Below, in pieces: positions 1 through 64,000 of a stretch of DNA of 64,000 nucleotides (the stretch's first letter is position 1; every line of letters starts with the position of its first letter). Both the position numbers and the translations under genes were made by a program. The stretch is from Loxodes magnus (lineage: Eukaryota; Ciliophora; Karyorelictea; Loxodida; Loxodidae), in NCBI GenBank assembly GCA_946699065.1, contig CAMPDV010001931.1:1-64000 (forward strand). The letters are read 5' to 3'. The notes under the pieces are model-generated. The model saw only the letters and a program-made list of their open reading frames with translations, was not told the origin of the DNA and searched no databases.

Positions 1-1757
1 AACTTTCTAATACATATTTATCTACTTACTTTGTATTCTGAGCATTTTTCTATGATATGCCTTTCGTTTTCTCTTGCATCATTACAGAAAGGGCATTTGC
101 TTGTCGCAACTAAGTGTCTTTCTTTTAAACAATCCTGGCTCCCATTACATCTCGTTCTTATTCTAAATATGTGGCATATTTCTTCTTTTCTATTTTTATT
201 GTATCTCAGGTAGTTGGGTGGTCCTACTACATATTCATCAAATCATGTTTTTCTATACTGTAGAGTTGTTATCATTTACTCCATTCTTTCTCTATCTTCT
301 ACGTATACTCTATGTTCTCAAATTTCACGATTAATGTTTTTCTTCCCTTTTTGATTATTATTACCATCATCTATAAATATATTTTTGTCTTCAATTTTTA
401 ATTCTAATTTTATTGTCGTGCAGTATTGTTCAAAAATAAAGTTCTCTTCTTTACTTAGGTCGAACATTAATCCATCTACTGTTTTTCCTTAGTTGTCTAT
501 TAGTCTCCCTCTTAATCTCAGCGTTTTCTGCCATAGGTAATGTTTAAATTTCATAAACTGTAACTCGTATTCTAGCATCTCATTTTATACTTAGAAAGGG
601 GCATCTATGATTGCTCGTAAAGATCTTCTCTATATTATTTCTAATTGTTCCATCACTTATTTTCCTACAAATTATTCACAATATGGGATAACTTCTGTCC
701 CATAGCTGAATACTGAGCTTACGAACGTTTTTATCATTATACCTGCGTTATATGGTGTTAATCCCTTATTCATTGTTATTTTACCCAGTATTCATGTTTA
801 CATCTTTTATGCTGCTTCTAGTCTGTTCTCCATGTGTTTTTCAAAGCTGATGGTTTCTTCTATTATATGCCCTAAGTACTAAAAGGACGTTACTCTTTCG
901 ATTCTTAAGTTTCCCACCTCAATAGTATTGCCTATATTTTCTCAGTTTCTATTTTCTGCTGCTTTTCATATCATTCATTTTGTTTTATCTGCAATTTCCA
1001 GTTTGTATTTTTCTGCCCATGAGGTTAAATTTTTGATTACTTCCTCTAATTATTCTCATTCACTTATTAAGGCTAGGTCATCTGCATATGCAAAACATCC
1101 TGCATATATTTCTTGTGTTCATCCCTCTTAGTTTTTAAAGTCTATCGTAATTCCTAGCTTTTAATCTTCCAAGCTATGGAGAAGTCTTGCTATTATTAAG
1201 TTAAATAGTCTTGGCGACGTTATGCTTCCCTGTTTTAGTCCTTTATTTGTCGAGAATGATTTTGCTATTTATTCATTGATTTTGAGTTTAATTTCTTCTT
1301 CACAGTAGAAGTTTGCTAGGAGTTTAATTATCTATTCCGGTACTTTTAGATCGTTTAGGATTTATCATATATCTTTTCTTTGCACCGAGTCGTACGCTTT
1401 CTTAATATCAACAAATATTACGAAAACATCTTTTTTGTTCCGTATTGATCATTCCTATACTGTTCTTAGGTTGAAAATTTATAGGGAGCATGATTTTCCT
1501 TTTTTAAAGCCATATTAATATTCGCTTTCATCATTATGCAGATATCCTTATAGTTGTTAGAAAATTCATGCATCTACTATTTTTAAAGCATGATTCAGTA
1601 AAGAGATTGGTCTATAATTCATCGGGTTCATCTGTCCTCCTTTTTTGTATATTAATACATGTTACTTCTGTTAGTTTTTTCCCACCTTCTAATATTGTGC
1701 CTACTTGTATTTCATCAGGTCCTGCTATAATAATCTATCCTTTTATTTAAAAGTAAA
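1..1757 (-). mobile_element. 5'-truncated non-LTR retrotransposon (LINE) reverse transcriptase, open past the window edge
   Basis: Read on the minus strand with UAR=Gln and UGA=Trp, this is one nearly continuous RT. In order it shows 'AGPDEI', 'YKKGGQMNPMNYRPISLLN', 'FKKGKSCS', the palm motif 'FVDIKKAYDSVQRKDI' followed by a UGA-encoded Trp, 'LKQGSITSPRLFNL', the catalytic box FAYADD at 1078-1095, 'FQYLGHII', a thumb with 'SYGTEV', and a C-terminal zinc knuckle (CPFC...HIIEKC) at about 20-110. About nine Trp codons are UGA and one is UGG. The endonuclease domain is missing: homology stops near 1757, the 5' truncation typical of target-primed reverse transcription. A one-base slip in the A6 run at 1641-1646 separates the 'AGPDEI' frame from the rest. 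The family matches CR1/Jockey/I-like LINEs in architecture; I cannot name the clade. Confidence 0.9.
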
Positions 1758-2129
1758 AAGATATATAATTAAAATTGTAAAAGTTTGTACACTATTAGTT
1801 TAATTACTTGCCTTGTTTTAAGACAAAAATAGAAAAATAAATGTTTAAGAAATGAGATATTTATAAGTATGCTTAATAAATAATTTATTTGTTTAATCCT
1901 ATTGAAATTAAATCAGTAAAATTTGTGGGGTTGTTTTGTTTAAATAGTTTTAGAAGTAAGTTATAAAAATTAAAATGGAGAAAAAAGAAAAGCAATTTAC
2001 TAAAATTATTTTTTTTAAGAAAACTCCTAAGAGCGAGAAACCACATTTTAGGGAAAATATCTCTACTTCATTTTAAGTATGAAATTCTGCCTAACTTATG
2101 CTACTAAAAGCTAATAAATAAGATCAGTT
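1758..2129. other. Spacer between LINE and WD40 gene
   Basis: AT-rich DNA with no recognisable motif. It holds the LINE truncation point and the region upstream of the WD40 start. I see no clear promoter element. Confidence 0.4.
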
Positions 2130-3044
2130 ATGACCAAAGTAAAGGTATTTCTTTTATATTTTTTAGACTAAGTTATTAATAACACTTCAGTTGATTTATC
2201 GGTAGCCATATCAAGTGACTTAAATTGGATTGTATCAGGTTCAGCATATCCTGAATATTCGATAAAGATCTTAAGCTTGTAAACTGGTTCTCTCATAAGA
2301 ACTTTAACGGGACATATTTCTACTATTTGATCGGTAGTAATCTCCTCAGACTCTAGCTATATCGTATCAGGATCTGGTGATAAAACCATTAAGATCTGAA
2401 ATTTCCACAATGGTGCTCTCCAAAGAACTTTAACGGGGCATACTTCTACAGTTAGATCAGTAGTTATCTCCCCTGACTCTAGCTATATAGTATCAGGATC
2501 TTCTGACTAAACCATAAGAATCTGAAATTTCCACAATGGAGCTCTCCAAAGAACTATAACGGGACATACTTCTTTCATTTACTCGGTAGTACTCTTATAT
2601 GACTCTAGATATATTATATCGGGATCTTCTGATACAACCATAAAGATTTGGGATTTCTAGACAGGTCAACTTGTGCAAAACCTTACTGGGCATTCAGGTT
2701 CTGTTTTATCGGTAAAAGTGTCTAAGGATAATAGATACATAATATCAGGCTCTGGTGACAGTACTATTAAGATATGGGACTTCTCTTCTGGCTAGTGTAT
2801 TCGTACTCTTTAAGGTCATTCAAGTTATGTATCAAATATTCAGTTAAGTGTTGATTCAAGTGTTATCTTTTCTTGTTCATGGGATTATACAATCAAGATA
2901 TGGAATTTTGATAAGGGTGAGTGTATATAGACTTTGTAAGGGCATACAGATGATATATAATCTATAGCATTGAGTGTTGATAATAGATGGTTGGTTTCGG
3001 GAGCGGGTGACAAGACGATAAGAAAGTGGAGAGTTTCGAGTTGA
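2130..3044 (+). CDS. WD40-repeat protein, intact
   Basis: This is one frame of 305 codons from ATG 2130 to TGA 3042-3044. It encodes about seven WD40 repeats of ~42 residues, each with the 'LTGH...SV..S.D..YIVSGS.D.TIKIW' pattern, so a beta-propeller scaffold is expected. Two of the repeat-closing tryptophans ('KIWNF') and an inner one ('STIWSV') are UGA, while later repeats use UGG ('KIWDF'). Several glutamines are UAA or UAG. The protein ends 'RKWRVSS' and then UGA, so UGA is both Trp and stop in one gene. The start is uncertain because the upstream frame is also open. Repeats 2-4 are very similar in DNA, suggesting recent internal duplication. WD40 fragments at 40.6 and 53.7 kb are paralogues. 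The cellular role cannot be told from the propeller alone. Confidence 0.88.
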
Positions 3045-4450: not shown

Positions 4451-4499
4451 TTCGGGATGGATAAATTAAGAAAAAGGGTTAGAGTTTTGATAGATATAA

Positions 4500-5215
4500 A
4501 AATCTTTAACAATGGCCTTTAAATTAAGATATCAAAGATTAAGCTTATGAACTTCTTAACACATTGCTAAATAAGTTTGATGAGAATCCACATATACTGA
4601 CAGGAGATTTCAAACACTCTTTTATAAGGTTTTGCAGACAATCCTGAAAATAATTTGATAATTCATATAGACTATAAGAATTTCTCCTACTAAATGATCT
4701 TGAAATAATGAATGAAAGTAACGTTAATACATGTATACAAAAGAAACTGTATAATTGTGGTGTAATGATTATATCATTATAAGCACCAATTTAAAGTAAA
4801 AAAAAATATGGAAAATACTTAAAATTCACTAGTTTTAACTAGCGACTCTTCTTTAATTGATTATAAAGAAGCTACAAACTTAGATCAAACACAGGTAGGT
4901 GCATAAAAACCCCGAATAAAAGAATTGGAGTTGCTATAAATCAAATAAGTAAACATAATAATGGATTTATTAAGAAAATCATTAAATATCTGTAGTCAAA
5001 GACTAGAAAATAAATTCTTACGCGCTCCACTGAAATCACTTAGAAATTCTCTTCAACGTGAACATCAATTATAGCATCTATTGAAAGAAAAATAAACTTA
5101 TAGGTAGAAAACTAGTTTAAATGCCTAAAATATTACCGCAGAAGATACAATAAGATCATCCAAAAATCTTTGCAAAATTAAGATATTATCCAAGACACTC
5201 CGATCTCTTAAAATA
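4500..5215 (+). mobile_element. LINE endonuclease-domain fragment (copy A)
   Basis: The frame reads 'ENPHILTGDF' (the GDxN strand of an APE-type endonuclease, with N changed to K), then 'LNDLEIMNESNVNTCIQKK'. It aligns with the better preserved copy at 6.6 kb ('NNPHILMGDFN', 'CLEIVNNMNSNTCIHKG'). No SDHxP motif follows. The downstream K/I-rich reading to ~5215 could be an endonuclease-RT linker but is not diagnostic. Copy A is probably a dead fragment. Confidence 0.55.
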
Positions 5216-6529
5216 TACTTTCAAATTTGAATTAAAATTTAAATAAAAATATCCTTTTACAATAGTCAAAAAGTACATAAACTTAAGATTTATTTTTGAA
5301 TAATAGTAATCAGAAATTCAATTAAATTGAATGTAATAAAAACAGTTAAAAGTAAGACAATAAAATTATTTCAGTTATTTCAAAGAATCACAATTTATCT
5401 GTTCTTTAGAATTAAAATTTACAACTTTAATAGAATTGATACCCAACAATTCAATTTAAAATTAAGCAATCAATAGTTCGTTTAATTAAAATTAGTATTT
5501 TAAGAAATGAAATTATTTAAATATGATATATAAAGACTAATAGATAAGAACTATTTATTAAATGAAAAGTTAGATAGTACAGAAACAAAATACGAACTAG
5601 AAAAATAAGCCTTGATAAATAACTAAGAATCATCAAAAGCATATATTAATAAAATTAATTATAAATACAAAAAAATAAAAACTATTTACTAAAATTTAAC
5701 TTATAATATTACTAGGAAAAGCTTTTGCAAAAATAATTAAGAATTAAAACATATAAAAAATAACCCGTTAATAACTTTAAAGTATAAGATTAAACTGAAC
5801 AGGATTAATTAGAGAATGTTACTTACTAATTATATCTTTCTATAATAAAACATAATTAATAACTACTTTAGAAACTTTTTCAATACAAATTTGAGAGGAA
5901 TTGGTTTTCATTTTAATCCAAAAAGAGTAAATAAGAGTTCTACGAATAACCAGTATAAACAACTTATGTCAATTCTAAAGAGATAACTGCTTAAACAGAT
6001 TTCTTAATGAAATGTATTGAATAAAGAACTTAAACTAACAATAGAGTTTTTGTATATTAAGAAGCGTTAACACAATATATAAATATAGAAATGAATCAAA
6101 CATAAACCGAAGAATCTTTAATATATTCAGAATAGGAATATTTAAAATAATAAATTCCATTCTATTAATTGTAATTTCTGGATAACAACACATTTGGTAA
6201 CTACTTTAAGAAGTTTGATAATCAAAAACTAATATTGAACTTGAAATAAACAATATTTTGAATTATAATTAATAACTGAAATCTTAAAATTAAAAAGTAA
6301 CTGATTAAGTATAAATATTATAAAGCTACTTGAAATTTTGAACTTTGAATGAGAAAAGAAATATTCTTAGAGATCAGATTATTAAAGCATACTAAGTTCA
6401 TTACATTTGCATAATAATAAATATATCCAAGATTTTAAAGATGCTTTCACATAAACAAAAATACCTTAACTATAGAATGATTACAAACAGGTTGAAATTT
6501 AATCCAGTGATTAAAAAATAAAAAAAACA
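5216..6529. other. AT-rich stretch without a recognisable gene
   Basis: Plus-strand readings are rich in Asn, Lys, Gln and Ile and carry no motif I can place. It lies between two fragments of the same LINE family and may be their diverged N-terminal or untranslated sequence. Confidence 0.3.
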
Positions 6530-7904
6530 ATTATTTTGAATTTAGATACGGCTACTGGAACAGAACTACTACATTTGGATTAAATTTCCTAGTGCGACTT
6601 TATTGATTCTAAATACATAAAATTGTACAAATAACCCACATATTCTAATGGGAGATTTCAATTGCTACCCTATAAGATTATGAAGATAATCCTAATAATG
6701 ACTATGATAATACAAACAGATTCTAGGAATTTATTATTCAGAAATGTCTTGAAATAGTAAATAATATGAACAGCAACACTTGCATACATAAAGGAAGATA
6801 TTTTATGCATTGCAATTACTATATTGTAATAAACAATCACCTGAAAACTAATCAATCTGAAAACTTCTAGGCTCATTATAACTAACTATTTACTGATCAC
6901 ATACCAATTATGGAAAAGCCTCTCTTCAACACAATTCTCTATTAGGACATGAATACCTAAAGAAAATATAAAATTAAAGGCTGCAAGACCCTAAGCATAA
7001 TAAACTTTCAAAAGACCTCACAAAGAAGTATATTGAAGCTAAAAGAGCTAATTAAGTATTCAAAGAAAATCACGCGTAGTTAGGAAGAACTAATTAATAA
7101 ATCATTCCCTTTTTAAGAACAATTAGTAAGAAGGTAATAATATAGAGATTAAGTAACAAGACTATCTGAATGTTACGAAATAGATATTAATAATTAGGAA
7201 TATAATAGTAGCTTTAATACTTTTACAAAATATATTAAAAGTAAGATTCAACATAAATTTTATGAAGTAACTATTAAAAGACTAAAAAGGATGTCCACTG
7301 CAAAGTTATTTATAGAATAGTTAGAATAATAAAAATAATTCCCGTAAATTACCTATCCAAAACTAAATAAACATTATCGAAAAGAAATATTTATTATATA
7401 CAAACTCAGAACCAAAAGTTACAACTTTCGCAAGAATCTAAAAGACAGACATTATTTAGTTGAGAATTCCCATTGTATATGTGGAAGATTTGATTAATTT
7501 GAAGAATTCTGGAATGCGATTGCTATATAGATATGCGAGAATGGTTAATAGAAAATTGGAAAATGCGACATTCAAAAATTCATAACCTATGACCAAAATT
7601 ATATCATATAATTTCCAAAAAAATTAGAATACATTGATCTGCAAATTAAAATTTTCCATAGGAATTTACTTAAAAGGAGATTAGGTTTATTCGAAATAGA
7701 AAAAAACTTATAATAAGAAAGTTCGAAACTAAGGTTAAGAAATCGAAATAGCAAGATAAAGATGAAGAGAATGATGAAAATAAGAAAGGAAAAGAAAAGA
7801 AAAGAAGAACAAGAAGAAAAAGATGAGCAAGTTGAAGATATAATGACCAAACTGATGACGAAGATGATATAGCTGAAGAAGAAGATGAAGTAGAAAGTGT
7901 TTGA
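6530..7904 (+). mobile_element. LINE copy B: endonuclease joined to the post-RT C-terminus, RT core deleted
   Basis: Endonuclease motifs are 'NNPHILMGDFN' near 6630-6660 and, after a one-base slip near 6668, 'NNDYDNTNRFQEFI' and 'FTDHIPIMEK' (the SDHxP strand) near 6890. About 200 bp later the reading already matches the C-terminal part of copy C: 'FPQITYPKLNKHYRKEI' and the zinc-knuckle start 'HCICGRFDQFEEF' near 7460-7500, against copy C 'FPQITYTKLNKQYRREI' and 'YCMCGEYETFEY'. The whole RT palm and thumb is missing, so this is an internal deletion. A Lys/Glu-rich tail follows, with an acidic reading ending at TGA 7902-7904. Confidence 0.75.
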
Positions 7905-8944
7905 GTTGAAAAACTTTAAAAATCTTTATAACATCTTTAATTGAAGGAAGGACTTACTTTTAGTCTAGTGGTTTGTAAAGATATATAACAATTAGCTGGT
8001 ATAGCTTTAAGTATTTGAACGATATGAGTACTTTAAAAGTATTAAAGAGATTTGAGTGAATGAAGATAGAGACAAAGTTAAATGATGAACGATAATGAGG
8101 ATAATATGTAAAAAAAGAAGAGCCAGGATCTATATAACTAAGCCAGCAAGAAAAAGATTTGACTGGTACAGATAGGATATCAAGCATTCTAATCCACTTG
8201 ATCATGATCACATGATGTAATATAGCCAATAGATAAATTTCTTGGCTAGCTACTATCAAGTAAATTACAATAGATTGAAAACCTGGTTAAGTTAGTAAAC
8301 CGACTAACTTTTTTATTTCAAACCTTTCAAAGATAGGACTAAGCATAAATTCACTTGATATGTTGATGTAAGAAATTTTAGTGTTTTAAATATCTTTGCT
8401 AAGTTATAAAGAATTGTAGATATAGAAAGAGTTTAAATTTAAAACAGTTATAAGGAAAAACTTTAAGACTAGCAAAAGCATAAAACCAAATACCATAAGG
8501 CTAGTCAATACTGTAGCAGAGTATATAGTAGGCTACTCAGCTAGAAAAAGGAGATAAAAATGAAGAGGAAATGCTAGTAATTTTAGATACTTTAGTAGAC
8601 AAGAGCTTATTCATCGAGAGCTGATATTTATCATACTTAAGAGAGTAGATTTAAAGTAAGAATGCTGATTTTAAACTATTTTTAAAGATTAGAAAAAAGA
8701 AGGATAACTTTATAGCTCTAAATCTAGAGTAGATTGTGTCTAACTGAAGTACATTTCGCTTTTAGAAATTTTAAGTAATAATTAATAAAATAAAAAAACA
8801 ACTTTGGGTAAATAGAATAGAAAGCTGAGCGAACTGTAGTAAAATTAAAGAAGTTAAGAATTGATTAAAGCAAGAACTTAAGAAAGAAATTAAACTAAAT
8901 ATACAGAGTAAAACTTGCGCTCAAACTAAAAATCCTATCTATCT
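7905..8944 (+). CDS. Possible coding region with helix-turn-helix-like segment, unrecognised
   Basis: The plus-strand reading is open with UGA=Trp and has gene-like composition, for example 'RKRFDWYRQDIKHSNPL' then 'INFLASYYQVNYNRLKTWLS', which resembles an 'A.YY.V....L..WL' helix-turn-helix. No catalytic motif of a transposase family could be located. It may be the diverged 5' part of the gene that follows, or a relic. Low confidence because all frames are open in this code. Confidence 0.25.
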
Positions 8945-8965
8945 ACTTACCATTTTAATTGCAGA

Positions 8966-10430
8966 ATGGATGAGTAAAATAAAGATTGATCACCTAATTA
9001 GATTTATTCCAGTATTATTCAAAACAATTAGTAAATACTCTGAGTTTTACAGGAAGATTAAAAAATAAAAGATTGAAGGATGGGTTATTAAGTTTTTAGT
9101 TATCACTTGTGGATTACATAGAAAGGATGAAGACTATTAAGTAAATAAATATCTTACATATAATCTTAACTTATATAATCTATATAAAATCTCAATTTAA
9201 TCTAGAATGGATCATTAAATGCAGCTTTAATAAGAAGCATAAAGGAATAAAGATAATACTTAGTAAATAAGCTAAAGTCTATTAATTAAGCTGATTTAAT
9301 TAAGTATTACTAATATTATTAAGTTTGCTGAAATATAAGGTTAAATGGTAACTAGAGTATCTGGAAATGTAGGATTATATTAGAGATATAGGTAAGAAGG
9401 AACGCTTTTAAGATACTGAAAGTGAGTATAAAGAAGCAAGTGAAGTTGGTATGAAGGTATAGATTGGAGAGATAAAGGAAAAAATATAATAATGGAAGAG
9501 ATGAATGGAAAATCAGGGACAAAAAGAAATATGGAAAATGTTTATATTTTATTAATGAAAGATAGCAATGAATTTACTACTCCCAATATAAAAATATCTA
9601 AAGATTATAGTGTAAGTAATTTAGTTAAAAAGCTGACAAAACGAAGAAATCATTAAGAGCTTTAATACTAAAGTATAAGTTAGATAAAGAGATCATTACT
9701 CTAACAAAGAAACTATTCTAGTTGCTTTCGAAATCTCCTTAGAACTCATAAGAGTTTCAATCAAGAAAATAAAGCTTTTATGAGAATTTGAACAGTTTGT
9801 CCATTATTAAGTGTTAACATTGAATGAATAATTTTAAAGCATAATTATCATAGAACTTAAGTGGAACATTTCCTTTATTTTTTTGTTTAACCAACAGTAG
9901 AAATGACTACAAGTAATGATGTTAAAGTGAGACACTGAAAATTGTTAGTTAAGGAAAAGTCTTTATACTAAGAAAAAGTAGTTTAAAGTAATCTGACTAA
10001 TCTAAACTGTTTAAGCACCTAAAAAAATTAAAAAAAACTTAGATTTGGAAATCAAGAAGACAAACTATCTCTTCCAAGAAATTAAGTAGCACAGACCCTT
10101 TAATAGAAATTAGTTTTACCCTTAAAGAAAATCTTTCTAATGAAGTAGCAGATTTAAATAACCAATTTTATTTTCTATACTATTTCATTGCTAGAGGTTG
10201 GCGAAAAAGCTTAGAAGAAAAAGAACAATATTAATAAAAGATTTTAGCAAAATCAAGTTTTAGAGAATAATTAAAATGCTGCTGAGAGTTAGTAAACTCA
10301 CAGGTTTTGAATAAGATATGCTGTAAGTCTTTAAAAATCTTATAGTATGAAATATACAAGTTATTAATACTTTAGTTTAAATTCTAAAACCTTATACACT
10401 AGTAACTATAGAGAAATTAAGTCTATTTTA
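8966..10430 (+). CDS. Unrecognised Gln-rich protein, frameshifted
   Basis: ATG 8966 opens 'MDEQNKDWSPNQIYSSIIQ', followed by 'GSLNAALIRSIKEQRQYLV'. The best reading then changes frame near 9340 and again near 10070, ending with 'SSTDPLIEISFTLKENLSNE' and 'LYYFIARGWRKSLEEKEQY'. The balanced composition (E, D, S and G besides K, I, N) indicates real coding. I recognise no family. Either the gene has decayed, or it carries undetected short introns or sequence errors. It converges tail-to-tail with the minus-strand gene at 10469-11309. Confidence 0.45.
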
Positions 10431-10468
10431 ATTGGTGTAAATCATAATATTCACTTTTGTAAATTTAT

Positions 10469-11779: not shown

Positions 11780-12813
<1,034 letters not shown>

Positions 12814-14590: not shown

Positions 14591-15080
14591 TATAAATAAA
14601 TTTGATTATAGAACGCGTAGCACTCTCGTTGATGCGCAGCTATATAAAAAAAAAGTTTCATACTGACAAGAATGTTTGTTACTGATAAAATTATCAGATA
14701 CTGATAGACCTTGCTCAATACTGGTATAATTATTCAATACTGATATAATTTTAGAATACTCGTAATCTTTAGTAGTTGTTGGAGATCCAAGGACATGGTA
14801 GGATTGTGTCTCATTACATCACCAAAGCAGAGGACGACATGTGTTAATTATGGGTACTTAAATTCCCCACCTCTGATGAAGCTCGCAATATTATTTCTTT
14901 ATAGTTCCAGAATTAAATCTAAACTAAGCCAGTGCCGAAGGTCTAAGAATCTTATGTCTCGAGGCCAAAGCAAAGCAGAGGAAGACATAAAATCGATTAT
15001 GGGAACTTAACTTCCCCATCCTCTGATGAAGATAACCTTATTGTTCACCTTCGAACAACTATGGCAGTTTAAAAAAAAAT
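14591..15080 (+). repeat. SINE-like repeat family 1, copy 1
   Basis: It starts at an AT-rich lead 'AAATAAATTTGATTATAG', then the head 'AACGCGTAGCACTCTCGTTG', then a zone of short 'CATACTGA'/'CAATACTG' direct repeats. The body contains two imperfect copies of a ~60-nt unit (CAAAGCAGAGGA...ACTTAA.TTCCCC..CCTCTGATGAAG), and the tail 'CACCTTCGAACAACTATGGC' precedes an A-rich run. Two further copies lie at 16.7 kb (minus) and 55.8 kb. Within each unit CAGAGG pairs with CCTCTG and the tail holds GTTC/GAAC pairing, so the element may act as a structured RNA. The A-rich 3' end suggests retroposition. A ~70-codon reading across it (from 14795) is open in all three copies but is probably incidental. 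Confidence 0.75.
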
Positions 15081-16292: not shown

Positions 16293-16365
16293 CGCCGACT
16301 AAGGGACTTGAACCCTTGACCACCAGCTTAAAAGGCTGGCGCTCTACCGACTGAGCTAAACCGGC
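16293..16365 (-). tRNA. tRNA-Lys (anticodon UUU)
   Basis: On the minus strand the sequence folds into a complete cloverleaf: acceptor GCCGGTT/AGTCGGC, D-arm 'TAGCTCAGTCGGTAGAGC', anticodon arm CCAGC-CTTTTAA-GCTGG giving UUU, variable loop, and T-arm AAGGG-TTCAAGT-CCCTT. A and B box consensus are intact. No intron. The 3' end is followed at once by GTTTTATT, a pol III terminator. It is transcribed in the same direction as the tRNA-Ala gene 62 bp upstream. Confidence 0.96.
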
Positions 16366-16427: not shown

Positions 16428-16500
16428 TGGAGAACACGGGTATCGATCCCGTTGCCTCTCGCATGCAAAGCGAGCGCTCTTCCATTTGAGCTAGTTCCCC
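16428..16500 (-). tRNA. tRNA-Ala (anticodon UGC)
   Basis: Minus-strand cloverleaf: acceptor GGGGAAC/GTTCTCC with the G3:U70 wobble pair that marks alanine tRNAs, D-arm 'TAGCTCAAATGGAAGAGC', anticodon arm CTCGC-TTTGCAT-GCGAG (UGC), and T-arm ACGGG-ATCGATA-CCCGT. Discriminator A. A T5 run (ATTTTTATT) follows as terminator. No intron. Confidence 0.96.
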
Positions 16501-16729: not shown

Positions 16730-17233
16730 TTTTTTTTATTTTTTTTAAACTGCCATAGTTGTTCGAAGGTGAACTATAAGATCATCTTCATCAGAGGTCG
16801 GGGAAGTTAAGTTCCCATAATCGACTTTATGTCTTCCTCTGCTTTGCTTTGGCCTCGAGACATAAGATTCTTAGACCTTCGGCACTGGCTTAGTTTAGTT
16901 TTAATTCTGGAACGAAAAAGAAATAATATTGCGAGCTTCATCAGAGGTGGGGAATTTAAGTACCCATAATTGACACATGTCGTCCTCTGCTTGGTGATGT
17001 AATGAGACACAATCCTACCATGTCCTTGGACCTCCAACAACTACTAAAGATTACGAGTATTCTAAAATTATATCAGTATTGAACATTTTTATCAGTATTG
17101 AACAAGGTTTATCAGTATCTGATAATTTTATCAGTAACAAACATTCTTGTCAGTATGGAACTTTTTTTTTATATAGCTGCGCATCAACGAGAGTGCTAAG
17201 CGTTCTATAATCAAATTTATTTATTTATTTATA
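16730..17233 (-). repeat. SINE-like repeat family 1, copy 2 (inverted relative to copy 1)
   Basis: The reverse complement matches copy 1 almost base for base from the 'AAATAAATTTGATTATAG' lead through the two ~60-nt hairpin units to 'CACCTTCGAACAACTATGGC', then a longer A-rich tail (T-run at 16730-16748). It is inverted relative to copy 1 and brackets the 1.7 kb that holds both tRNA genes. No matching target-site duplication could be seen by eye. Confidence 0.78.
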
Positions 17234-26058: not shown

Positions 26059-28329
26059 ATGGACACTACTTATATTTGTAGAGTCTGTTGTAAAAAATTA
26101 GTCAGTAAGAAGAAGCAATCTTAACTATCTTTATGTGAAGAGCATTATAACTAAACCCAATTTGAGTCTTAACCTTATAAGAAAAAATGCTCAGAAAGCA
26201 TAAAATAAATTTAAGCTCGAGAAAACGAATAGGCAGAACACTAAAAATAGGAATTTAGTTTAGCTACTAATTTAGATTAGCAGCATCAAGAAAAATCACT
26301 AGCATAGTAAGAAAATACTAGCGAGGAAAATGAGAATAAGTTCTAAGTATAAAGGTAATAAGTAAAGGAGTTTTGGAAGAATAACAACATTATAAGTTGA
26401 ATATGCTAATTCCTGGAAAATAGAGACATCGCTATTGTATAATAAGTTAATAGAAACTTCTACTTTTATAGGTATATTTTTAACAAGCTTGAAATCAGAC
26501 TATTCGAAGAAGATTAATTAGCCACTAAAAACATGATAGAATGAGCTTTGAAGTAGATTTCATACTCAGATGTAAAATAGTTACTAGTAGATGCATATGA
26601 GTTTACACTAAAAATTAAAGGCTAAATTCCAGAAAGGCTACAGCAAAGTATCTAAATAAGACTGAACAGCTTAAGAAGTAACTAATAGCTTTAACTGTAA
26701 GAAGTTCATTTTAATGGAATGGTAATAAGCAGCAGCATGCAAATAACTATTCCTCATTTTAATTAGCTAAGGAAGATAAGAATCGCTGACTGCTTAATTG
26801 AAGACTAATCTTTAAAATTTTTGCTATTGCTACACAGATTAGAGTCAATTGATCTATTCTCATAATAATTAACAGGCTAGTTTTTATTAGATTATTGCAG
26901 TAGCCTTAACTTAAAGGCACTAAAAGTCTATAGTTATAGTCTATAATATGAGAAGGTTAAAGAGTATCTATAAGCTAAAGGGAGAGGTTTGCTGGAAATA
27001 AATATAAATGAAAACGATGAATTTGAGGAGCTTATTGAGTTTTGTCCTAATCTGGAGAAAATCGATTTTTCATTCTATAAGGAAAATCAAAAAATGATTC
27101 TAAGGAAAATAAAGGAACTTAAACTTAAAGATCTAACAATAGGATTTTTCGATGCTAACTGCTAAGCAAACCAAGAATTCCTAGCCTAGAAAAATAAATA
27201 CCTATAAAGAATTGATATCAACAAAGTGAGGCATAAAGGTTATTAATGACTACTCTTTCTACTTCGTAATACTCCTAGTTTAAAGAGTCTCAGTGTTTAG
27301 AATAGTAAATATAGTCGAAATAGAAATGAAACAGTGTAGATATAAAAATAAGATTAACTAATAGTCAATGAAACTAGCCTTCAGTTTTAGGAGCATTTTA
27401 ACTTAGAAAATATTAATTTAGAAGGGATTTAAAGAATAAGTATTCACATCATCAAACTATTGGTATACAACTCTCCTTGTCTGAAGAAATTAAGGTTAAC
27501 AAATGTAAGAGTGAGAGATGATTAAAAAACTTAGTATAGTAGCATTACTTAATAAGTATAAGCACTAGAGTAAAATAAAAGTCTTTAAAATCAAAAGCTA
27601 CTCTAGCTTGAAGATGCTTCAATTGAAGACTGTGAATAGCTTAGTGATGAAGTATTATAATTCATCCTAATAAACTCTCCTAATTTAAAAGGGTTGAAAC
27701 TAGGTTAATTAGATAAAGTCTAAAGTTAGACTTGACATAAAATAGGAGTTTATAATAAGAACATCCAGAATTTGAAAATAGAACAGGTTGAGAATCTTTA
27801 AGTAGAAGCTATCAATTAGATATTCTAAAATTGCTAGAAATTAAGAGAAATTAGCTTAACTAAAATAGAAGGAATATAAAATAAGACTTTAGAAATACTG
27901 AATACTCAATGCTAGTAACTTCAAAGTATTTAACTGGATTGTTGTAGCTTTAATCAGTAAAATTGGATTAGTGAAATAGTTAAAATGCCTTCTTTAAAAC
28001 AGATTGTAATCAATACTTGTAAGTTAGGTAATGAAGAAGTATCTCGAATAATAAAAGAATGCAAATGATTGAAATATTTGAATTTAGATGATAATAAAGA
28101 TATAACAGAAGAAGCATTTCCTTTAAGTGATAGATTTGGGATTTAGTATGAAATTTGGAATAATTTAAGACGTTTAAACTTAGGTGGATGTAGAGTGAAC
28201 TTATAGTATTTAGAAGATCTAAACCAAAAATTTAAAAGGATAAATATTTATTCTAACTTAGGATGAATTAACAAAAAGAAAGAACAGTTAGACTTTGATT
28301 TGTTGGATTTAAGTAAGTAGAAGACATGA
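26059..28329 (+). CDS. F-box-like/leucine-rich-repeat protein with N-terminal Cys motif
   Basis: ATG 26059 opens 'MDTTYICRVCCKKLVSKKKQ', with a paired-Cys segment followed by 'SLCEEHYNQTQ' that may bind zinc. After a Q/E-rich linker comes an F-box-like helix set ('IISWICQFLENRDIAIVQQV' then 'NRNFYFYRY'), then about 15 irregular LRRs such as 'SLKFLLLLHRLESIDLFSQQ', 'LQFILINSPNLKGLKLGQLD', 'ECKWLKYLNLDDN' and 'IWNNLRRLNLGGC'. One frame holds from 26059 to TGA 28264-28266, and UGA is Trp at several internal sites (ISW, ECKW, GYQW). A second in-frame TGA lies at 28327-28329 after a plausible tail, so either may be the stop. F-box/LRR proteins usually act as SCF ubiquitin-ligase receptors; that role is inferred. 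A decayed paralogue is at 18.6-19.5 kb. Confidence 0.82.
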
Positions 28330-40935: not shown

Positions 40936-42440
40936 AAATATTAAAGAATTAGCTTGAGATTAGTCGTAGGAAATGTTGTTTAGCAATTTTTAGAAGCAGA
41001 GGTTGAATTTGGTATTTAAATAGAAGAAGGGGTATTGTTGGGACTGATTTGTTGTTGTTAATATTTTTGGTAAAAAAAGAGTTTTAGTAAATGATATTAG
41101 TTTTGATTGAATTTTGATAACTAAGTTGAATAATTTGGAAATGAAAGTAACTGATCTTAATAATTTTGGTTATTTAAGTTGAATTAAATAATAAAAATAT
41201 TGATTTATTAAGATACTTATAAGATTTTATTAATTAAATTATTGAAAATTCTAATTTTTAAGCTTAAATGCAGAAAAATATAAAGCTGTCTTTGTCCATT
41301 AAAGGTTTTAGAATTTGAATGATTTGATATGTTTTGACTTTTAAATAAAAGGATAAATGATTATATCAAAAGTTTATAACTAAGAATTTAAATCCTTATT
41401 ATAATAACTTTACTATGCATTTATTAATCATACCTTATTTGAGTTTTAAATAAAAAGACTCTTACCTTATTTCAATATAAACCCTTTTAAATGATAAACA
41501 AAATAATAAAAATGCTTTAAAAACTACTGTTATTAATTATTCTTTACACTTACATTTAATCAAACAAATTAGTTATTTAAAATTTTAATTATTTAAAATA
41601 AATAAAAATTAGTTTCTTAGTTATTAGTTTAAATATAAAAACCATATTTAAACCAAACTATTTATCTTTCTAATTTATAACATCAAACCAATTATACACC
41701 AAGTAATTAACTAATATCATACAAAATTTATCATCTTTTAGTCATCAATAATCAATACAAAATATCCATATCCAACTTAACTTCACCTTAATTCATCAAA
41801 ATTTAATCAACATTTTAATCAAACTATAAAAGCAAAACAACGCTACCAGAACAAAACTTTATATTATAAATAGTCAACATCCCAATAATCTCAACTAAAT
41901 ACCAATTTAGTCAAATGGTCTTAAGATCACTCATTCAAATAAAAAAACAATCCTTCAAAATTACAAAACAGAAGACTAATAATCTTATAGGATTAACACT
42001 AAAAAATTATAAGATATCACTTTAACATTTAACTAAATTATCAAATATGGATCAACTTATCCCTATTACCTCTATTTCATCATGTCTAAAAAAAGGCCCA
42101 AAATCCAAAATTATAAAACTCTAAAGTAGTTAATCATAGAAATTTCAGTCTATACTTTATGATTCAAACCTAAATTCCTCTCTTCACCTTTTATCTTAAA
42201 CCATAAAGTCAGTTTTTAACTAAAGATACTAAGATACTGGACTTTTCTTAAGCAACAAAAAACAATACATTAATACTCCACAATTACTAAATCCACATCA
42301 AGAGAAGACTATCAAGAAGAAATAAAGGAAACGCAAAACTTTAAGCTCTTACAATAATCCTTGCATCTTACTATGATAGGCAAAAAGCACAACATGAGAA
42401 CAATCTAATAAGCATTTCTCTACTGAGATGACAATAGATT
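40936..42440. other. Gene-poor AT-rich region with skew switch
   Basis: 40980-41380 is nearly C-free on the plus strand. From about 41640 to 42340 it is nearly G-free and A/C-rich. No gene or RNA motif is recognised. Confidence 0.5.
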
Positions 42441-42449
42441 ATAGCTGTT

Positions 42450-43160
42450 CTGAATTGAAAAGGTATTTTGGGTCTTTTTAACAAACCAAAGTAATATATT
42501 CTATTTTAGATTTTAAATTGTACATAATTTACTGATCCTACTTTCTACCTCTAATAATTTTAGAACATCATCAAGTATTAATTCTAGAACTAAAAATTAT
42601 TAAATTTAAAATCTTCTACGCATTACTCTTATACCAGACAGTATTTTTCTTTTATTCCATTTTCTTTGGCAAGGAATCTTAATTTCCTTTCCTTAAAAGC
42701 TGTTTTAGCTTTTTCTTCAACAATTTTAGCTTTCCTTAGTACTTTCTGCTTAGGTTGTTATTTTTATAATTGAAGCAACATGCTTTTATTATCTATTCTA
42801 GTCAATGAAGTTTTCTTTAAAGTAATTTGATATCCTTTTTTGGTTTTAGTTTCGAGCTTTATCTGAAATAGTTAGATGGAAATTATATACTTAGGCTTAT
42901 TTGAGATTATATCCTTAAACTAAATCCTATTTTTAGATCAAATTAACTAGTGTAAACAATTAATTCAGATACAAATTATTCAGCAAAGGCATCTAGCTTT
43001 TAAATGTAACAAGTATAATACCTTTATAAACTCCTAGAATCAACACTATTTCAACCATACTTTTCAAACATTTCCTTTAACTTCCACTAACAAACTTAAT
43101 GCTAGATACTAAATCAAACCTACTCAGATCCTCTTTATAACTGCAAGTCAGATCATTCTA
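42450..43160 (-). CDS. Unrecognised Lys-rich protein
   Basis: The minus strand reads 'KLKEMFEKYGWNSVDSRSLQ', 'RYYTCYIQKLDAFAEQFVSE' and, after a slip near 42930, 'FKDIISNKPKYIISIQLFQI', 'KLETKTKKGYQITLKKTSLT', 'AKIVEEKAKTAFKERKLRFL', 'AKENGIKEKYC'. The composition and the long Lys/Glu helix are clearly protein-like. No family recognised. Confidence 0.45.
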
Positions 43161-43164
43161 AGCG

Positions 43165-44067
43165 AGGAGAATAGCTGTGATAGAGTAAATTACTATACAA
43201 AAGATTTAGCAACTAAACTCTAAAGTCTCTTCCTCAATAATAACAAATAACTCAAAGAAGCTACTATCTAATCAGTTCTTAAACGACCAGGATTAATTTC
43301 AATCTTAAAGAATTGTAGATAAATAAGAACACAATAGTCTTAAAAAGAAGTTAAATCCTTATCTAACTAACTAAATTGCTTTATAAAGGATAATATATTT
43401 AAACAACAATAAACACCTTAAACCACTCTAGTTCAAACCAAAACTACTTTATGGTCAAAAGCAGCAACACAAATTTCCAACAAGGCAAATCAACAATAGC
43501 CAAGCCAATTAAAAGTAAAAACTTTTCAAAACAAAGTAACGTTTCATAGATCTGAAGCTTGACTAATTAAAATCATTTACCAATCATTTTAAGGCAGAGG
43601 ATACGGTAGTATTTTACAGTGCTAGGAAGGTTAGAGCAAATAATTAAGTAGAAGAAAACTTAATTAAAAGCTAGAAATTTAAATTTGGGAATGCTAAGAT
43701 TAAAAGAAAACTTTCTAGTTCATTAGCATGATAAGAGAAGATAAATGCATTCAATATGAAAACTTTCTATCTCCATATGTATTTGAGGAGATAAAAAGTG
43801 GTGAGTATATAATTTAAAAGCTACAAAGTTAGTATTCTGAGAGTGGTGTAATATAAAATTAATTTTAAGCAGTTCAGTCTTAGAAAGGTTGTAGCTAGCA
43901 TATAAGGAAAAAAATGTACTTTAGAATATCAATTTGAAAATAGAAACTTAAAAGAGAGCAAATTAACGCTAGCAGAAGGATTATAATACTTAGAGTAAGC
44001 TGAAGAAGAAAAAAAATCCAGAATTTGATAAAAGCAAAGAAGCTTCTGAAAAAAATGAGGAAAGAGA
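43165..44067 (+). CDS. Coding region leading into LINE copy C, not RT-like
   Basis: Plus readings include 'ILSEENSCDRVNYYTKDLAT', 'KEATIQSVLKRPGLISILKN', 'NFLSPYVFEEIKSGEYIIQK' and then, in the frame that continues into the RT, 'QFENRNLKESKLTLAEGLQY'. None of the upstream RT palm motifs is present, so this is either unrelated sequence joined at the LINE truncation point or a highly diverged part of it. Confidence 0.35.
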
Positions 44068-45354
44068 GCAGATGATCTTATTCTTCTTTCCAAATCTGCA
44101 AAGTAGATGTAGAATTTAATAAATGAAGCAAATAAAGTTTTTGCATGAACATATTTAAAGATAAATGCTACCAAATCTGAATGCATCTAATTTCTAAAGA
44201 AGAATCAGAAATAATAAATTTTAAATTTATGATTAGGAAATTAACCAATTGCTTAAAAAGAACAAGTAACATATTTAGGAGTTATTCTACATCGGAAGAA
44301 GAACTTGAATCCCCATTGCAAAGAAGTTGCATTCAAATATATAGCTGCAATGAAGAAAGCTGTTTTTTAACTGATGAGATATAAGAATGTAACTCCTTGA
44401 CATTTTAAAACTTTATGTAGACTTTTTACATTACATAAAGCAGAATATGGAGGATATTTAGTACCATGAAGTATTCAAAAAGGAGTAACTGGAGTTCTGA
44501 ACAGAATAGAATCAAGCATGAGATTAATTTCAAGAAAAGCTTTTTAAGTAGCAACTTCAACATTTAATGAATCATGTTATATAGACCTGAATTGATTACC
44601 CTTTAAGCACATTATGGCTATAAAATTCTTCAGATTTTACCATAAAATTAAATAAGAAAGTATTGATTTTCCAAAATCAACAATAGGCTCTCTTTTCATT
44701 AATATATGGAAAAAAGGATTTCAATACTACGATTAAGTATAGCAATTATCAGACCTTTATAATATCGATCTGCAGAATTAATAGAATAATACCAATCTTA
44801 AAACTTTTACTAAACATATTAAAAAAAAAATACAGCAATAATTCTACAAAGTAACTACTAAAAAATTTATGAGAATGAAAACAGCTAAAGTATATACTGA
44901 ATAATTTGGTAATCTTTAACAATTTCCACAAATTACTTATACTAAATTAAACAAATAGTATAGACGAGAAATTATCAGTATATATAAACTTAGAACCTAA
45001 ATTTATAATTTCCGTAAGGATCTTTAAGATCGTCATTACCCCATTGATAATCCCTATTGTATGTGTGGAGAGTATGAAACTTTCGAGTATATCTTTAAAT
45101 GTGTGTACTATTCTAATATAATGAATTGATTATCGGAAAAGATCGGAAATTATGACTTAAGGCGCCTTATACTATACGATCAAGAATATCTAAACTAATT
45201 TTCAAGGTCTAAATTGGAGTATTTAGACTTATAGATCAAAATATTTCATAAGAAGCTAATGACAAGGAGACTTGAGATTCTAGAAATGGAGAAAGCAAAA
45301 AAGGAAGAAGCTAAAGATGAGTAGAAAGAAGAACTAATTAAAGAAAAATGATGA
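44068..45354 (+). mobile_element. LINE copy C: RT from the ADD box to the C-terminal zinc knuckle, intact frame
   Basis: An uninterrupted frame of 427 codons from 44068 to a tandem TGA TGA at 45349-45354. It shows 'RADDLILLSKS' (catalytic Asp pair kept, preceding aromatic changed to Arg), 'YLKINATKSECIQF', 'QVTYLGVILHRKKNLNPHCK', thumb 'HKAEYGGYLVPWSIQKG', 'LPFKHIMAIKFFRFYHK', 'FPQITYTKLNKQYRREI' and the knuckle start CMCGEYETFEYIFKC, then a Lys/Glu tail. Trp is mostly UGA. The 5' part of the element is missing. Distinct from the 1-1757 element but the same family as copies A and B. Confidence 0.85.
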
Positions 45355-46926
45355 GATGTAAACAATATTAAAAAACTCTTTTAGTTTAAATTTAATTTAT
45401 TTATATGTGATATTCCTTTTTACATTCTTTTACCTTATTTATTTTTATTTACTAAGCTTTAGAAATATTTAATGAGTTATGTTGAAAGATTATAATATCA
45501 AATGATTTTGCTAGATTGATAAATTTTATGTGGCTTTTACTTTGTAGCTAGTCTAATAATTTTTGCCATTCCTTAATGAATTGGATCTTTCTTTAAGAAT
45601 GTTAATGAACATAGAATCTTATTTTCCTAAACTAACTTTAAGATAATAATATGAGAGTTGTAATTCTCTTTCTTGACTATTTTATAACTAATTAGGGATT
45701 TCTTAATAGTAGCCTATTGATAATAAATTGGTTATGAAGTTAATTTCATAAGTATTACTAGTAATAGGATATATTATATTCTAATATTCTTATTTCACTT
45801 CCAAATATTTCTCTAATAAACTCATGCTTATTCATATCTATAGCAATCCTATAGTTCTTATTTCTACTTATCACCTTTAAAATTACTTATATCTTCTAGC
45901 TAACAATTTAACTTTAGTCCTTTTTAATATCGATAAACCTTATTTGCTCAGTATTTCCTATCTTTTAACCTATAAATAACTAATTTAATTATTTACAAAT
46001 AAATAGCATTAAAGCATTTTTTAGCTTGCTTAAGTTAGACTAAAAATAGAGAAGTGTATAACTTACTCTTAAGCTAGCAAGTTAGATAGACAATATCTAT
46101 TACTACTAAACTATAACCTAAATAAATAATCCTTTATTTCCCAATTTAATAAATAAGAAGGTATATCCTTCCTGCATTTTATACTCTAAAACACAAAAAA
46201 GAAAGTTAGTCAGTACCATAAATAAAAGGATTATAGTTAACTATGAAGGGATTAGGGAATTAATAGCTTTAGTTACTAAATAAGTTTGAGATTATATAAT
46301 TATAACTAAAGGTATAAATGGATGCACTTTCTTAATTCATATCTCTATTTAATATTTGAAGCATATTTCAAACTCTTTAATCAGATAGTTATTAAAAAAG
46401 CTATTAAGATCATTATTTACATTTTACACTAAAGAGAGACTCTAAGTTCAATCTTCTTAGTATTTTTTAAAATTAGAGTAAGTATTTCTAACTTAAATAG
46501 AGCCAGTAGGACAAGGATAATTTGTATTGATAAGATGAGAAATATATGAGATTCTAGTTATTCTCTATTAATTCATATTTCAAAGAGCAGAAATAATTAT
46601 TAAACTGCTTATTTTATTTATTATAACTAGAAACTAAGAAAAAAGTTTATCTAGTTTAATTAATTTATTTTAGTAATTTTTACAACTAAAATAGATCTAA
46701 AAATTATTTAATCAAGTATATTCTTTTTCGTTTAAATAATAAATACAATGCTTAGCTAATTAATTAATTTCTATTTATTAGTCACTTTCATTATATTAAG
46801 AGTATTGTTATTTGACTAAGGTTGTAGGATGTTTTTTTGTATTATATATTGCTATTAGTTATAGAAATTAAATCTAAGATTGAATAGAAAGCTTTTATAT
46901 TTAAATCCTAATTTGTACCCTTTTTT
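45355..46926. other. Gene-poor AT-rich region
   Basis: No reading on either strand has convincing composition or motif. It contains the 3' flank of LINE copy C and the upstream region of the REJ gene. Confidence 0.4.
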
Positions 46927-55429: not shown

Positions 55430-55845
55430 TAAAATTAGGCAAATGTATTAGACTAAAGGTGCAATTAAGATTAATGACACGATTGAAATGACTGCTAACT
55501 ATCTTCTCATCAAAATTTTACATATTGCAATTTAAATCCACAATATAATTGTAACTGGAATATTATAGGTAACAATGTAATCCAAATAGTTTACTACGAA
55601 AATTCTAAAAGATATTAGAATAGTTTATGCAAGTACGATGGTAATGACTGCTAAGTTTGCATAGATACCAATAATACATATCTTCAATCTTAAGGGAACA
55701 ACATTAGCGATTTAAGTTGCTATAATAAATAATGTAACTGAGATGGGTGAGGTCGTAAAAAGTGTTTATAGAAAGGCTGCAAAATCAAACAAATTGGGGA
55801 TTTTATTTTTCAAGAATAATGCTATTACGAAGAATGCTTTTTTGA
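55430..55845 (+). CDS. Lin-12/Notch-repeat (LNR) protein, segment 1
   Basis: A Cys-rich extracellular-type reading: 'CNLNPQYNCNWNIIGNN', 'SLCKYDGNDCQVCIDTNNTY' (the C-x-Y-D-G-x-D-C signature of LNR modules), 'CYNKQCNWDGWGRKKC' and 'FQEQCYYEECFFDK'. LNR modules bind calcium. The frame is cut at ~55846 by repeat family 1 copy 3, and LNR coding resumes after it, so the two flanks are probably one gene. Confidence 0.6.
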
Positions 55846-56352
55846 TAAATAAATAAATAAATTTGATTATAGAGCGCGTAGCACTCTCGTTAGTACGCAG
55901 TTCTTTAAAAAAATGTTTCATACTGACAAGAATGTTTGTTACTGATAAAATTTCAGATACTGATAAATCTTGTTCAATACTGGTATAATTATTCAGTACT
56001 GATAAAAATGTTCAATACTGATATAGTTTTAGAATACTCGTAATCTTTAATACTTGCTGGAGGTCCAAGGACATGGCAGGATTGTGTCTCATTGCATCAC
56101 CAAAGCAGAGGACGACATGTGTCAATTATGGGTACTTAAATTCCCCACCTCTGATGAAGCTCGCAATATTATTTCTTTTTCGTTCCAGAATTAAAAATAA
56201 ACGAAACCAGTGTCGAAAGTCTAAGAATCTTATGTCTCGAGGCCAAACCAAAGCAGAGGAAGACATAAAGTCGATTATGGGTACTTAACTTCCCCAACCT
56301 CTGATGAAGACGACCTTGTTGTTCACCTTCGAACAACTATGGCGGTTTTAAA
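55846..56352 (+). repeat. SINE-like repeat family 1, copy 3, inserted in an LNR gene
   Basis: It has the same order as copies 1 and 2: AAATAAATAAATTTGATTATAG lead, 'GCGCGTAGCACTCTCGTT' head, CATACTGA/CAATACTG repeats, the two hairpin units and 'CACCTTCGAACAACTATGGC', ending GGTTTTAAAATATT with a weaker A-rich tail. It differs from copy 1 by scattered substitutions and is free of indels in the body. LNR-coding sequence lies on both sides. Confidence 0.78.
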
Positions 56353-57030
56353 ATATTATAATAATCAGCAAGAATAAGATGATTATCTGTTGTAATCTCA
56401 AAGAAAATGTACTTTAAATAAGCCACGTAATAATTAGTATGATAGAATGTGATTTTTTCGAACGAAATTATGACTCAATTGGTTTTCAGAGTAGAAACAC
56501 CCTTAATCAAAATGATCTTTTTATATAATTCAGGATAATAAATGTATTAGTGACAAATGTCTGGGTCTTTACGAGTCTTTTTTTCATGTAATTAAAAATA
56601 ATGTAGTGGAAATGATTTTAGTTATCATAACATCAATAAAATAGGAAATGGAATATGTGATGAAGAACTGCTAAGTCCTGATTGTAATTATAATGGTTTT
56701 ATCTTTTGTACAACAGATTTAATTGAAGAATGTAGCAGTCTAAGTCTGGCAATGGATGAATTTTGCCAGGTTGGATAATTAAGCGATTAAAATATCAGTT
56801 TTTTTTACTGTAGCTATGATAATGCTTAATGTTGCTTTAAAGTAACGAATAAAATCAGATTCTTATGAAGGATTTCCTTGCTATCCAGATTTACTTAATA
56901 ATGAATTTTGCGATCTTTAATGTTTTGTTAAGTAATGTTAAGAAGATGAAAGATTTTGCATAAAATGTTCAGATACCTTATGCTTTAATGTTAAAAGAGT
57001 AGGAGATTAATTAATTAATTTTAACTATAA
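56353..57030 (+). CDS. LNR protein, segment 2
   Basis: Continues the Cys-rich pattern: 'NKIGNGICDEELLSPDCNYN' with 'GF.FC' (a full LNR start), 'MDEFCQVGQLSDQNISFFYC', 'SYDNAQCC', then 'NNEFCDLQCFVKQCQEDERF' and 'CIKCSDTLCFNVKRV'. The frame changes at least once near 56850. Cut near 57030 by a minus-strand ORF1 copy. Confidence 0.6.
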
Positions 57031-60330: not shown

Positions 60331-60499
60331 AATTGAAGCTCTCCTTTTGATTCAGAACTGTAAGTTATTTAACAAGAGATTTGAATGACTGTTATTAAGA
60401 TATTTAAAACTAAGATACTTGGTGTGAGAGTGATTTGAATGGCACCTAATAAAGAGCAGCAATAGAAGGCTAAAATGGTTAGTAAAATGGTTAGTTTTG

Positions 60500-62188: not shown

Positions 62189-62486
62189 CTGAATCTTTGT
62201 TTTTTTTATTAAAAAATAATAAGTTTTACTTTCTTGAAAGAAGTAGAAATCTATTCACGCAAAAAATTCTTGAAAAAGAAAAAAAATAATTGAGAAAAGC
62301 AATAAATAAGATAAAAATTTATAAAAAGCTGATTAAGGATGACATCAGATTGTATACAATTATCTTTACATAAAATATTTAATTTAAAAATCTAAATAAA
62401 AAGGTCTAGAAAAAGAATTAAAAAATAATCCAAAAGGTGATAAAAAGTGCTAAATAAAGAGAAAAGTATTGAAACATATTAAAAAG
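62189..62486. other. AT-rich spacer
   Basis: A-rich intergenic DNA upstream of the ARF-like gene. Nothing recognised. Confidence 0.5.
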
Positions 62487-63077
<591 letters not shown>

Positions 63078-63580
63078 TTAAAATAATCTAAATAAGTTTA
63101 AAAAATTAAATAAAATTTACTAATAAAAATATATTTTTTATCAGAACAAATATTCAACGTGAAATCTATACAAATTTTAAAGGTTCTTCATTTTTGGACA
63201 AAACAAATATCGATTAAAAAAATCTTTAAAATATAATAGACAAAAATTTAATTTGACTCCTGCATAATCTATAAAAATTTATCTTGATATAAAAAATTAG
63301 AAAAATCATTCTTAAAACTTATGAAAGAACAGTAATTAAATTTTTTGAAATAATTAAAAAATCTTTAGTTAAAGCTTAAGATTTATCAAGTAATAAGTTT
63401 AATTGCAATACAAATAAATAATAAAATTCCTTTAAAATTTGACATAATATAAAGAGAAATTTGTAATTTAGAAGAAAAAGCAACTTGGAAATATAGAAAT
63501 AGATCATATTAAATTTGAAGTTAGTTTTTGAAAAGAATGTTGCTTATAAGTTTAAAGATGAAGATGATAAAAAGCTTAAG
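63078..63580. other. AT-rich spacer
   Basis: No recognised feature between the ARF-like gene and the tandem repeat. Confidence 0.45.
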
Positions 63581-63584
63581 AACT

Positions 63585-64000
63585 AAAAGACTGTAAGAAG
63601 AACTTTAAGATTGCAAACCGTTAACGTTGCGAGCTCGGATCTCTTTCTAAAGTTATATCTGAATATCGAAAGCGTGGAAATCTCAAAATGACAGTAAGAT
63701 AAACTTTAAGTTAGGAATCCGCTTTCCTTTAGAGCTCTGTTCAAATCCTCCATTGAACTGAGAATCGAGAGTGCTTAAATATTCAAATTCTGAAAGAGAA
63801 ACTTTAAGTTAAGAATCCGTTAATCGTTAAATGCTCTGTTCAATTTCTCCAAAAGAGTTTGCTGATATTAAGCTAAGAACTATAAAACTGTAAGAGAAAC
63901 TTTAAATTTGGAGGCCGTTAATCCTTGAAAGCTTCTGATTAAGTTCTCCAAGATTGAACTGAGAATCGAAAACGCTAAGTACTGAAAGACTGTAAGATGA
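63585..64000. repeat. Tandem repeat, period ~98-102 bp, running off the window
   Basis: At least four units, each opening AAACTTTAAG (63601, 63701, ~63799, ~63897). Each contains 'TTAGGAATCCGTTAATCCTT'-like, 'GCTCTGTTCAAAT.CTCCA' and 'TGAACTGAGAATCGAAA' blocks and ends 'CTGAAAGACTGTAAGA'. The unit is more GC-rich than its flank. The period is not a clean multiple of three, which argues against a protein repeat. Confidence 0.75.

Follow-up and report, generated by a model that had tools for sequence, protein, structure and literature searches.

The window analysed here comprises 64,000 nucleotides of the ciliate Loxodes magnus (GenBank contig CAMPDV010001931.1, here C1931; positions 1 to 64,000 of the forward strand), and is part of an assembly (GCA_946699065.1) of 705,730,643 bases in 7843 contigs; genome-wide pattern counts refer to these 705.7 Mb. 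The evidence set out below supports the view that genes here use each of the three stop codons for an amino acid, and UGA for termination as well. Under the standard code (table 11) the window contains no open reading frame of 150 amino acids or more, in line with an earlier interpretation made from the letters alone (the sequence-only reading), which held that standard-code annotation would miss most genes here. When UAA and UAG (UAR) are translated as Gln and UGA as Trp, Pfam domains emerge in frame, namely WD40, RING-kelch, LRR (leucine-rich repeat), RVT_1 (reverse transcriptase), cathepsin L-type peptidase and Arf-like. Codon-usage segmentation, the self-training of which may have drifted, served solely to pick the segments searched; Pfam found no domain in six of the ten selected window segments, nor in the three forward frames of 4700–9801 and 42001–46502.

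The best single proof within the window is provided by a WD40 repeat gene (2130–3044, forward strand), which was recognised by Pfam (233 bits for the WD40 model and 335 bits for the best propeller model, a beta-propeller), by alignment to PDB structures, by its translation and by its repeat layout. The conserved Trp column of its six repeats is encoded, in order, by UGA, UGA, UGG, UGG, UGG and UGG; a third UGA lies opposite Trp or Thr in the homologues of the PDB alignment. The gene holds its frame and its repeats across all three UGAs, and the assignment of UGA to Trp in this gene is firm. The RING-kelch gene (33500–34945, forward strand; Pfam) contains four internal UGA and two UGG codons, and the LRR gene (26059–28329, forward strand; Pfam, FBD-associated F-box LRR model) contains six and three; it is plausible, though not decisive, that the internal UGAs of these two genes encode Trp. 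The latter had been described as an F-box/LRR gene, of which the LRR part stands (45 bits, from the LRR model alone), whilst the Pfam search of 26059–28329 returned no match to an F-box model.

A cathepsin L-type peptidase gene (11849–12813, forward strand; Pfam) informs on UAR, since the Gln at what we take to be the oxyanion-hole position is encoded by UAA. All 11 Trp codons of this gene are UGG. Its reading frame shifts by two bases near 12718–12722, in a GA run, and the conserved C-terminus resumes in the other frame, ending in ASYPVL followed by UGA at 12811–12813; the UGA at 12740 was considered as the stop codon and rejected, as the conserved C-terminus runs on two bases out of frame to 12811–12813. 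An Arf-like GTPase homologue (62484–63011, forward strand; Pfam) contains six UAR codons and four Trp codons, all UGG. Three of its GTP-binding motifs are altered, so it may be a pseudo-GTPase, or else a copy in decay.

Two copies of the release factor eRF1 (loci L002 and L003) lie about 35 kb apart on contig C196, and a UAR codon stands at the Gln of the GGQ motif. Both copies retain NIKS and GTS. Relative to human eRF1, with numbering by motif, Glu55 is replaced by Ala, Ser70 by Ala and Tyr125 (the first residue of YxCxxxF) by Phe in both copies, and the TAS preceding NIKS is replaced by RAQ; the eRF1 changes that the sequence-only reading had proposed to look for are thus present. The eRF1 motifs are listed in the available part of PMC12153298, which gives Ser70 to Gly for Blastocrithidia. 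Across the cathepsin, the Arf-like protein and the two eRF1 copies, none of the 23 Trp codons is UGA, and across the WD40, kelch and LRR genes 13 of 25 are. In this small sample, such a difference between genes fits an avoidance of UGA in conserved genes.

Codon meanings were also inferred with no code assumed: all three stop codons were masked as X, the window and 23 fetched loci were translated in six frames and compared with one another, and the residue that best explains the residues opposite each codon was scored. Hits to L014, a tandem repeat, were excluded; 31 of the 45 accepted paralog pairs were used, the other 14 being left out as repeats judged non-coding. In the pooled columns, which are not independent of one another, several pairs coming from some families, UAA was assigned to Gln (359 columns; runner-up 20.2 log units lower), UAG to Gln (146 columns; runner-up 38.2 log units lower), and UGA to Trp as the best of 20 residues (88 columns; Tyr next, 17.4 log units lower). 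As a control, 60 sense codons had 15 columns or more, and 57 of them were named correctly. The code assignment is a direct result, as are UGA at the anchored ends and the tRNA and eRF1 sequences and gene numbers given here, and together with the WD40 column and the anchored gene ends it bears out the proposal that every stop codon here is also a sense codon. The placing of UAA and UAG at glutamines has the further support of the cathepsin and GGQ positions.

For three genes, the cathepsin and the eRF1 copies L002 and L003, a conserved C-terminus anchors the end; UGA stands at each of these ends, and neither UAA nor UAG at any of the three, two of which are paralogs. UGA is likewise present where the sequence-only reading had placed the ends of the WD40 (3042–3044), kelch (34943–34945) and LRR (28327–28329) genes. 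These three ends are placed by the codon and by a fall in G+C content beyond it, which is clear in WD40 and kelch and slight in the LRR gene; the last, the likely end, has another UGA 21 codons upstream. A further in-frame UGA lies within five codons of the end in both eRF1 copies and in a long interspersed nuclear element (LINE copy 2), where the previously noted tandem UGA UGA was located at 45349–45354. According to the available part of PMC6879139, ciliates with UGA as stop tend to have tandem stops; the window shows no enrichment of the hexamer TGATGA (39 observed against 33.4 expected, standard deviation 5.7).

The window carries two pieces of LINE elements. Copy 1 (861–1646, reverse strand) has a reverse transcriptase domain (RVT_1, 121.5 bits) whose reading frame runs on to the left end of the window; copy 2 (44233–45354, forward strand, closed by the tandem UGA) has a C-terminal part resembling copy 1 at about 22–24% identity. 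In the reverse transcriptase frame, residues 135–682 of copy 1 contain 11 TGA and 2 TGG codons. An alternative count of 18 TGA and 5 TGG was set aside as it lies off this frame, and the 79 scored genome matches to the LINE protein, each with 15–19 TGA, were rejected as evidence for UGA as Trp since their query was off the frame too; the same query gave 4068 first-look genome candidates. The reverse transcriptase frame is offset 1, and the differences among three LINE copies (about 97–98% identical) are scattered over the codon positions in every frame, with no third-position excess in the reverse transcriptase frame. The off-frame query and the missing third-position excess led us to discard the TGA-rich LINE copies as evidence on UGA; the off-frame reading appears as open as the reverse transcriptase frame. 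LINE pieces also occur head to tail every 2532 bp at C5131:12053–26353 and C20:1177–7881 (positions only, from the off-frame query).

The sequence-only reading had suggested a search for a tRNA-Trp that reads UGA. The cognate form, with anticodon UCA, gave no match in the 705.7 Mb with two patterns whose arm contexts fit all three known tRNA-Trp types bar the wobble base. What the assembly does contain is a large set of tRNA-Trp(CCA) genes with a 4-bp anticodon stem, for which UGA reading is predicted. A broad pattern fitting tRNA-Trp and tRNA-Cys matched at 307 places; the exact pattern for the 4-bp-stem form, with C43, matched at 124, and that for the 5-bp-stem form, in which position 43 may be A, G or U, at three, all on C110 and all with U27 opposite A43. 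Of the 127 tRNA-Trp genes that the two exact patterns recover, 124 are hence of the 4-bp type. Among the 100 4-bp matches listed, 48 lie on C67 at a spacing of about 187 bp and 52 on C148, of which 51 are spaced at about 241 bp and one lies some 1.9 kb away on the opposite strand; all 100 have the anticodon CCA, though the pattern left the wobble base open.

The tandem arrays extend over C67:482313–491186 and from C148:155454 to about 173067, with loci L030–L037 and L041–L043 among the copies read. The full array copies read have a length of 72 nt; among them, the sole difference between the two arrays is at position 27, which is A in C67 and U in C148, both opposite C43; a degraded copy (L043) closes the C67 array. 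With a cmsearch model made from four tRNA-Trp sequences, the uppermost pair of the anticodon stem (A27·C43 or U27·C43) is the lone non-standard pair in the eight array copies printed, whereas copy L024 on C110 has no non-standard pair and copy L040 on C110 has a T-stem mismatch instead. T-rich runs lie downstream of the array copies. In reporters, UGA readthrough rises with the 4-bp-stem tRNA-Trp(CCA) of Blastocrithidia and of Condylostoma, and a 4-bp-stem form has been reported for Loxodes (available parts of PMC13092985 and PMC12005148). In our literature search, which did not cover the Swart et al. preprint, amplification of tRNA-Trp in arrays was not found described for Loxodes.

Beside the three 5-bp tRNA-Trp genes on C110 (361729–470121; L024, L038–L040) lies a single-copy tRNA-Met(CAU) gene, which has nearly its whole body in common with one of them; from the sequences, the pair looks like the outcome of an anticodon-arm exchange. 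tRNA-Met, with its one match, was accordingly rejected as a comparator for gene number, this gene being an oddity that shares its body with a C110 tRNA-Trp.

High gene number is not peculiar to tRNA-Trp. The 25-base core of a tRNA-Lys(UUU) gene in the window (16293–16365, reverse strand) has 350 genome matches with up to one mismatch, which place the window in this assembly. A UUA-type tRNA pattern has 290 matches, likewise with one mismatch allowed, some of which may be UUG or CUA forms. On these numbers the amplification of tRNA-Trp as a unique case was rejected. UUA-anticodon tRNAs were read in six of six loci scanned. In 2885 codons from seven gene sequences, Trp makes up 16.6 and Lys 79.0 of every 1000; genes per codon used are roughly 1.7 times as many for Trp as for Lys, a modest excess. 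Short tandem arrays of a UUA-anticodon tRNA (about 275 bp) and of tRNA-Lys (527 and 1753 bp) were seen at C214:232607–237602, C103:669759–672945 and C78:681143–688179, so that tRNA tandem arrays in this genome are not confined to tRNA-Trp.

Taken together, we consider it very probable that the window is L. magnus nuclear DNA read with the karyorelict code (table 27), in which UAA and UAG encode Gln and UGA encodes Trp inside genes and stop at their ends, and that a tRNA/eRF1 mechanism of the following kind is likely at work. From the sequences and published work we infer the function of the tRNAs, their competition with eRF1 and the role of the 3′-end context. UAR would be read by the abundant UUA-anticodon tRNAs, which are putatively charged with Gln, and internal UGA by the 4-bp-stem tRNA-Trp(CCA), as the cited reporter work suggests. 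eRF1, altered at Glu55, Ser70 and Tyr125, would release at UGA but be a weak competitor inside genes, and may prevail only near the mRNA 3′ end or poly(A) tail, a step taken from published work. The tRNA and eRF1 components identified in the assembly agree with what has been published. More tentatively, and as a reading somewhat less likely than not, the balance between Trp and stop at UGA may be partly set by the dosage of tRNA-Trp(CCA) through the two arrays, which hold nearly all the tRNA-Trp genes found; with unpaired position 27 as the one base that differs between arrays among the copies read, the 4-bp form would be a general tRNA for UGG and UGA and not a minor suppressor.

Several points weigh against this interpretation of the code and its decoding. 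In two alignments of the LINE reverse transcriptase with R2, no UGA lies opposite Trp, and where the two window LINEs are aligned with each other, UGA meets F, Y, Y, F, F, Q and E in its seven columns, residues that are mostly aromatic but never W. The suggestion that UGA falls at conserved tryptophans in five families thus holds for the WD40 gene, is plausible for kelch and LRR, and is not borne out for the two LINEs. In the pooled inference, the two eRF1 copies have no UGA within their reading frames and contribute five of the 88 UGA columns from their flanks, so that a little non-coding sequence was mixed in. The anchored ends number three and represent two independent genes; the gene sample is too small to reveal whether UGA is depleted ahead of stops. 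None of the three tRNA-Trp types takes a cloverleaf form in a plain thermodynamic fold, and the UCA patterns are blind to other D-loop or loop contexts and to an unassembled mitochondrial genome.

Some of these points would suit a Tetrahymena code, in which UAR alone encodes Gln and the internal UGAs are stops of pseudogenes or products of frameshifts: UGA is absent from the 23 Trp codons of the cathepsin, Arf-like and eRF1 genes, the UGAs of the LINEs face no Trp, and one frame shift is indeed present in the cathepsin. A decaying gene is nonetheless hard to reconcile with the WD40 frame and repeats kept over three UGAs, two of them at repeat Trp, and the pooled inference favours Trp for UGA over 19 other residues; in Condylostoma, a relative with an ambiguous code, proteomic and ribosome-profiling data lend support as well (available part of PMC4967479). 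We regard the Tetrahymena code as extremely improbable. The choice between tables 27 and 28 is of another kind. Tables 27 and 28 share their sense assignments, and sense data therefore cannot separate them; under the Condylostoma-type code (table 28) UAA and UAG too would act as stops near mRNA ends, which the few anchored ends available here leave some room for. All three of these ends (two independent genes) are UGA, though, and PMC11441545 assigns Loxodes table 27 with UGA as the sole stop, with UGA and UAA depleted before stops in L. magnus. The sequence-only reading had left the lineage between karyorelict and Condylostoma; with the source now known as L. magnus and UGA at both the anchored and the named ends, table 27 fits better, the few ends meaning that the lineage carries much of the choice, and table 28 is very unlikely.

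A further alternative leaves the code untouched and concerns its decoding. The reader of UGA might be a mitochondrial tRNA-Trp(UCA) brought into the cytosol instead of the nuclear 4-bp tRNA; ciliate mitochondria encode such a tRNA, and PMC4967479 raises the possibility that it serves in the cytosol, to which our UCA patterns, modelled on nuclear tRNA, add some latitude. This must be set against the predominance of the 4-bp type (124 of 127 genes) and the readthrough that 4-bp tRNAs of other species confer in reporters (available part of PMC13092985). Import appears improbable to us, if somewhat less so than table 28, and the nuclear 4-bp tRNA-Trp(CCA) is the preferred reader of internal UGA.

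Elsewhere in the window, a tRNA-Ala(UGC) gene (16428–16500, reverse strand) lies beside the tRNA-Lys gene, and the two are flanked by an inverted pair of repeats of about 490 bp (14592–15078 and 16739–17224), which are 96% identical. A third copy of this repeat, at 55845–56364, is 88–89% identical.

The phenomenon itself is already known, the Loxodes lineage and its code being in print. The L. magnus macronuclear (MAC) assembly has been described as 706 Mbp with abundant LINE reverse transcriptases (available part of PMC11441545), and the assembly used here, with about 706 Mbp, the table 27 code and plentiful LINE reverse transcriptase matches, agrees with it. Likewise, no difference in code is seen from the karyorelict table 27 of Loxodes and Parduczia, with UAR as Gln and UGA as Trp internally and stop at ends. 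Few codes use all codons as sense codons and give one of them two meanings, and this is one of those; tables 1 or 6 consequently misread the genome in annotation, as has been recognised.

Comparable systems share parts of this arrangement. In Condylostoma magnum (table 28) all 64 codons are also sense codons, termination depends on context, and there is no nuclear tRNA-Trp(UCA), as stated in the available part of PMC4967479; Condylostoma terminates at UAA and UAG too, whereas Loxodes here shows UGA ends alone, in a small sample. Blastocrithidia likewise combines a 4-bp tRNA-Trp with a change at eRF1 Ser70 (available part of PMC12153298), but differs in reading UAR as Glu, in using UAA as stop and in having Gly where Loxodes, with UAR as Gln and UGA as stop, has Ala. 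The UGA-reading 4-bp tRNA-Trp known elsewhere has, in the portions available of PMC13092985 and PMC12005148, the same CCA anticodon and broken 27–43 pair, again with no UCA tRNA found; compared with these, Loxodes has 124 genes, of which the 100 listed come from two contigs and almost all sit in close tandem arrays. Relative to published work on table 27, what is added here is the tRNA-Trp and eRF1 inventory of the assembly, which gives a concrete decoding picture: no UCA tRNA found, more than 120 mismatched-stem tRNA-Trp genes, and eRF1 changes at residues thought to set the competition at UGA.

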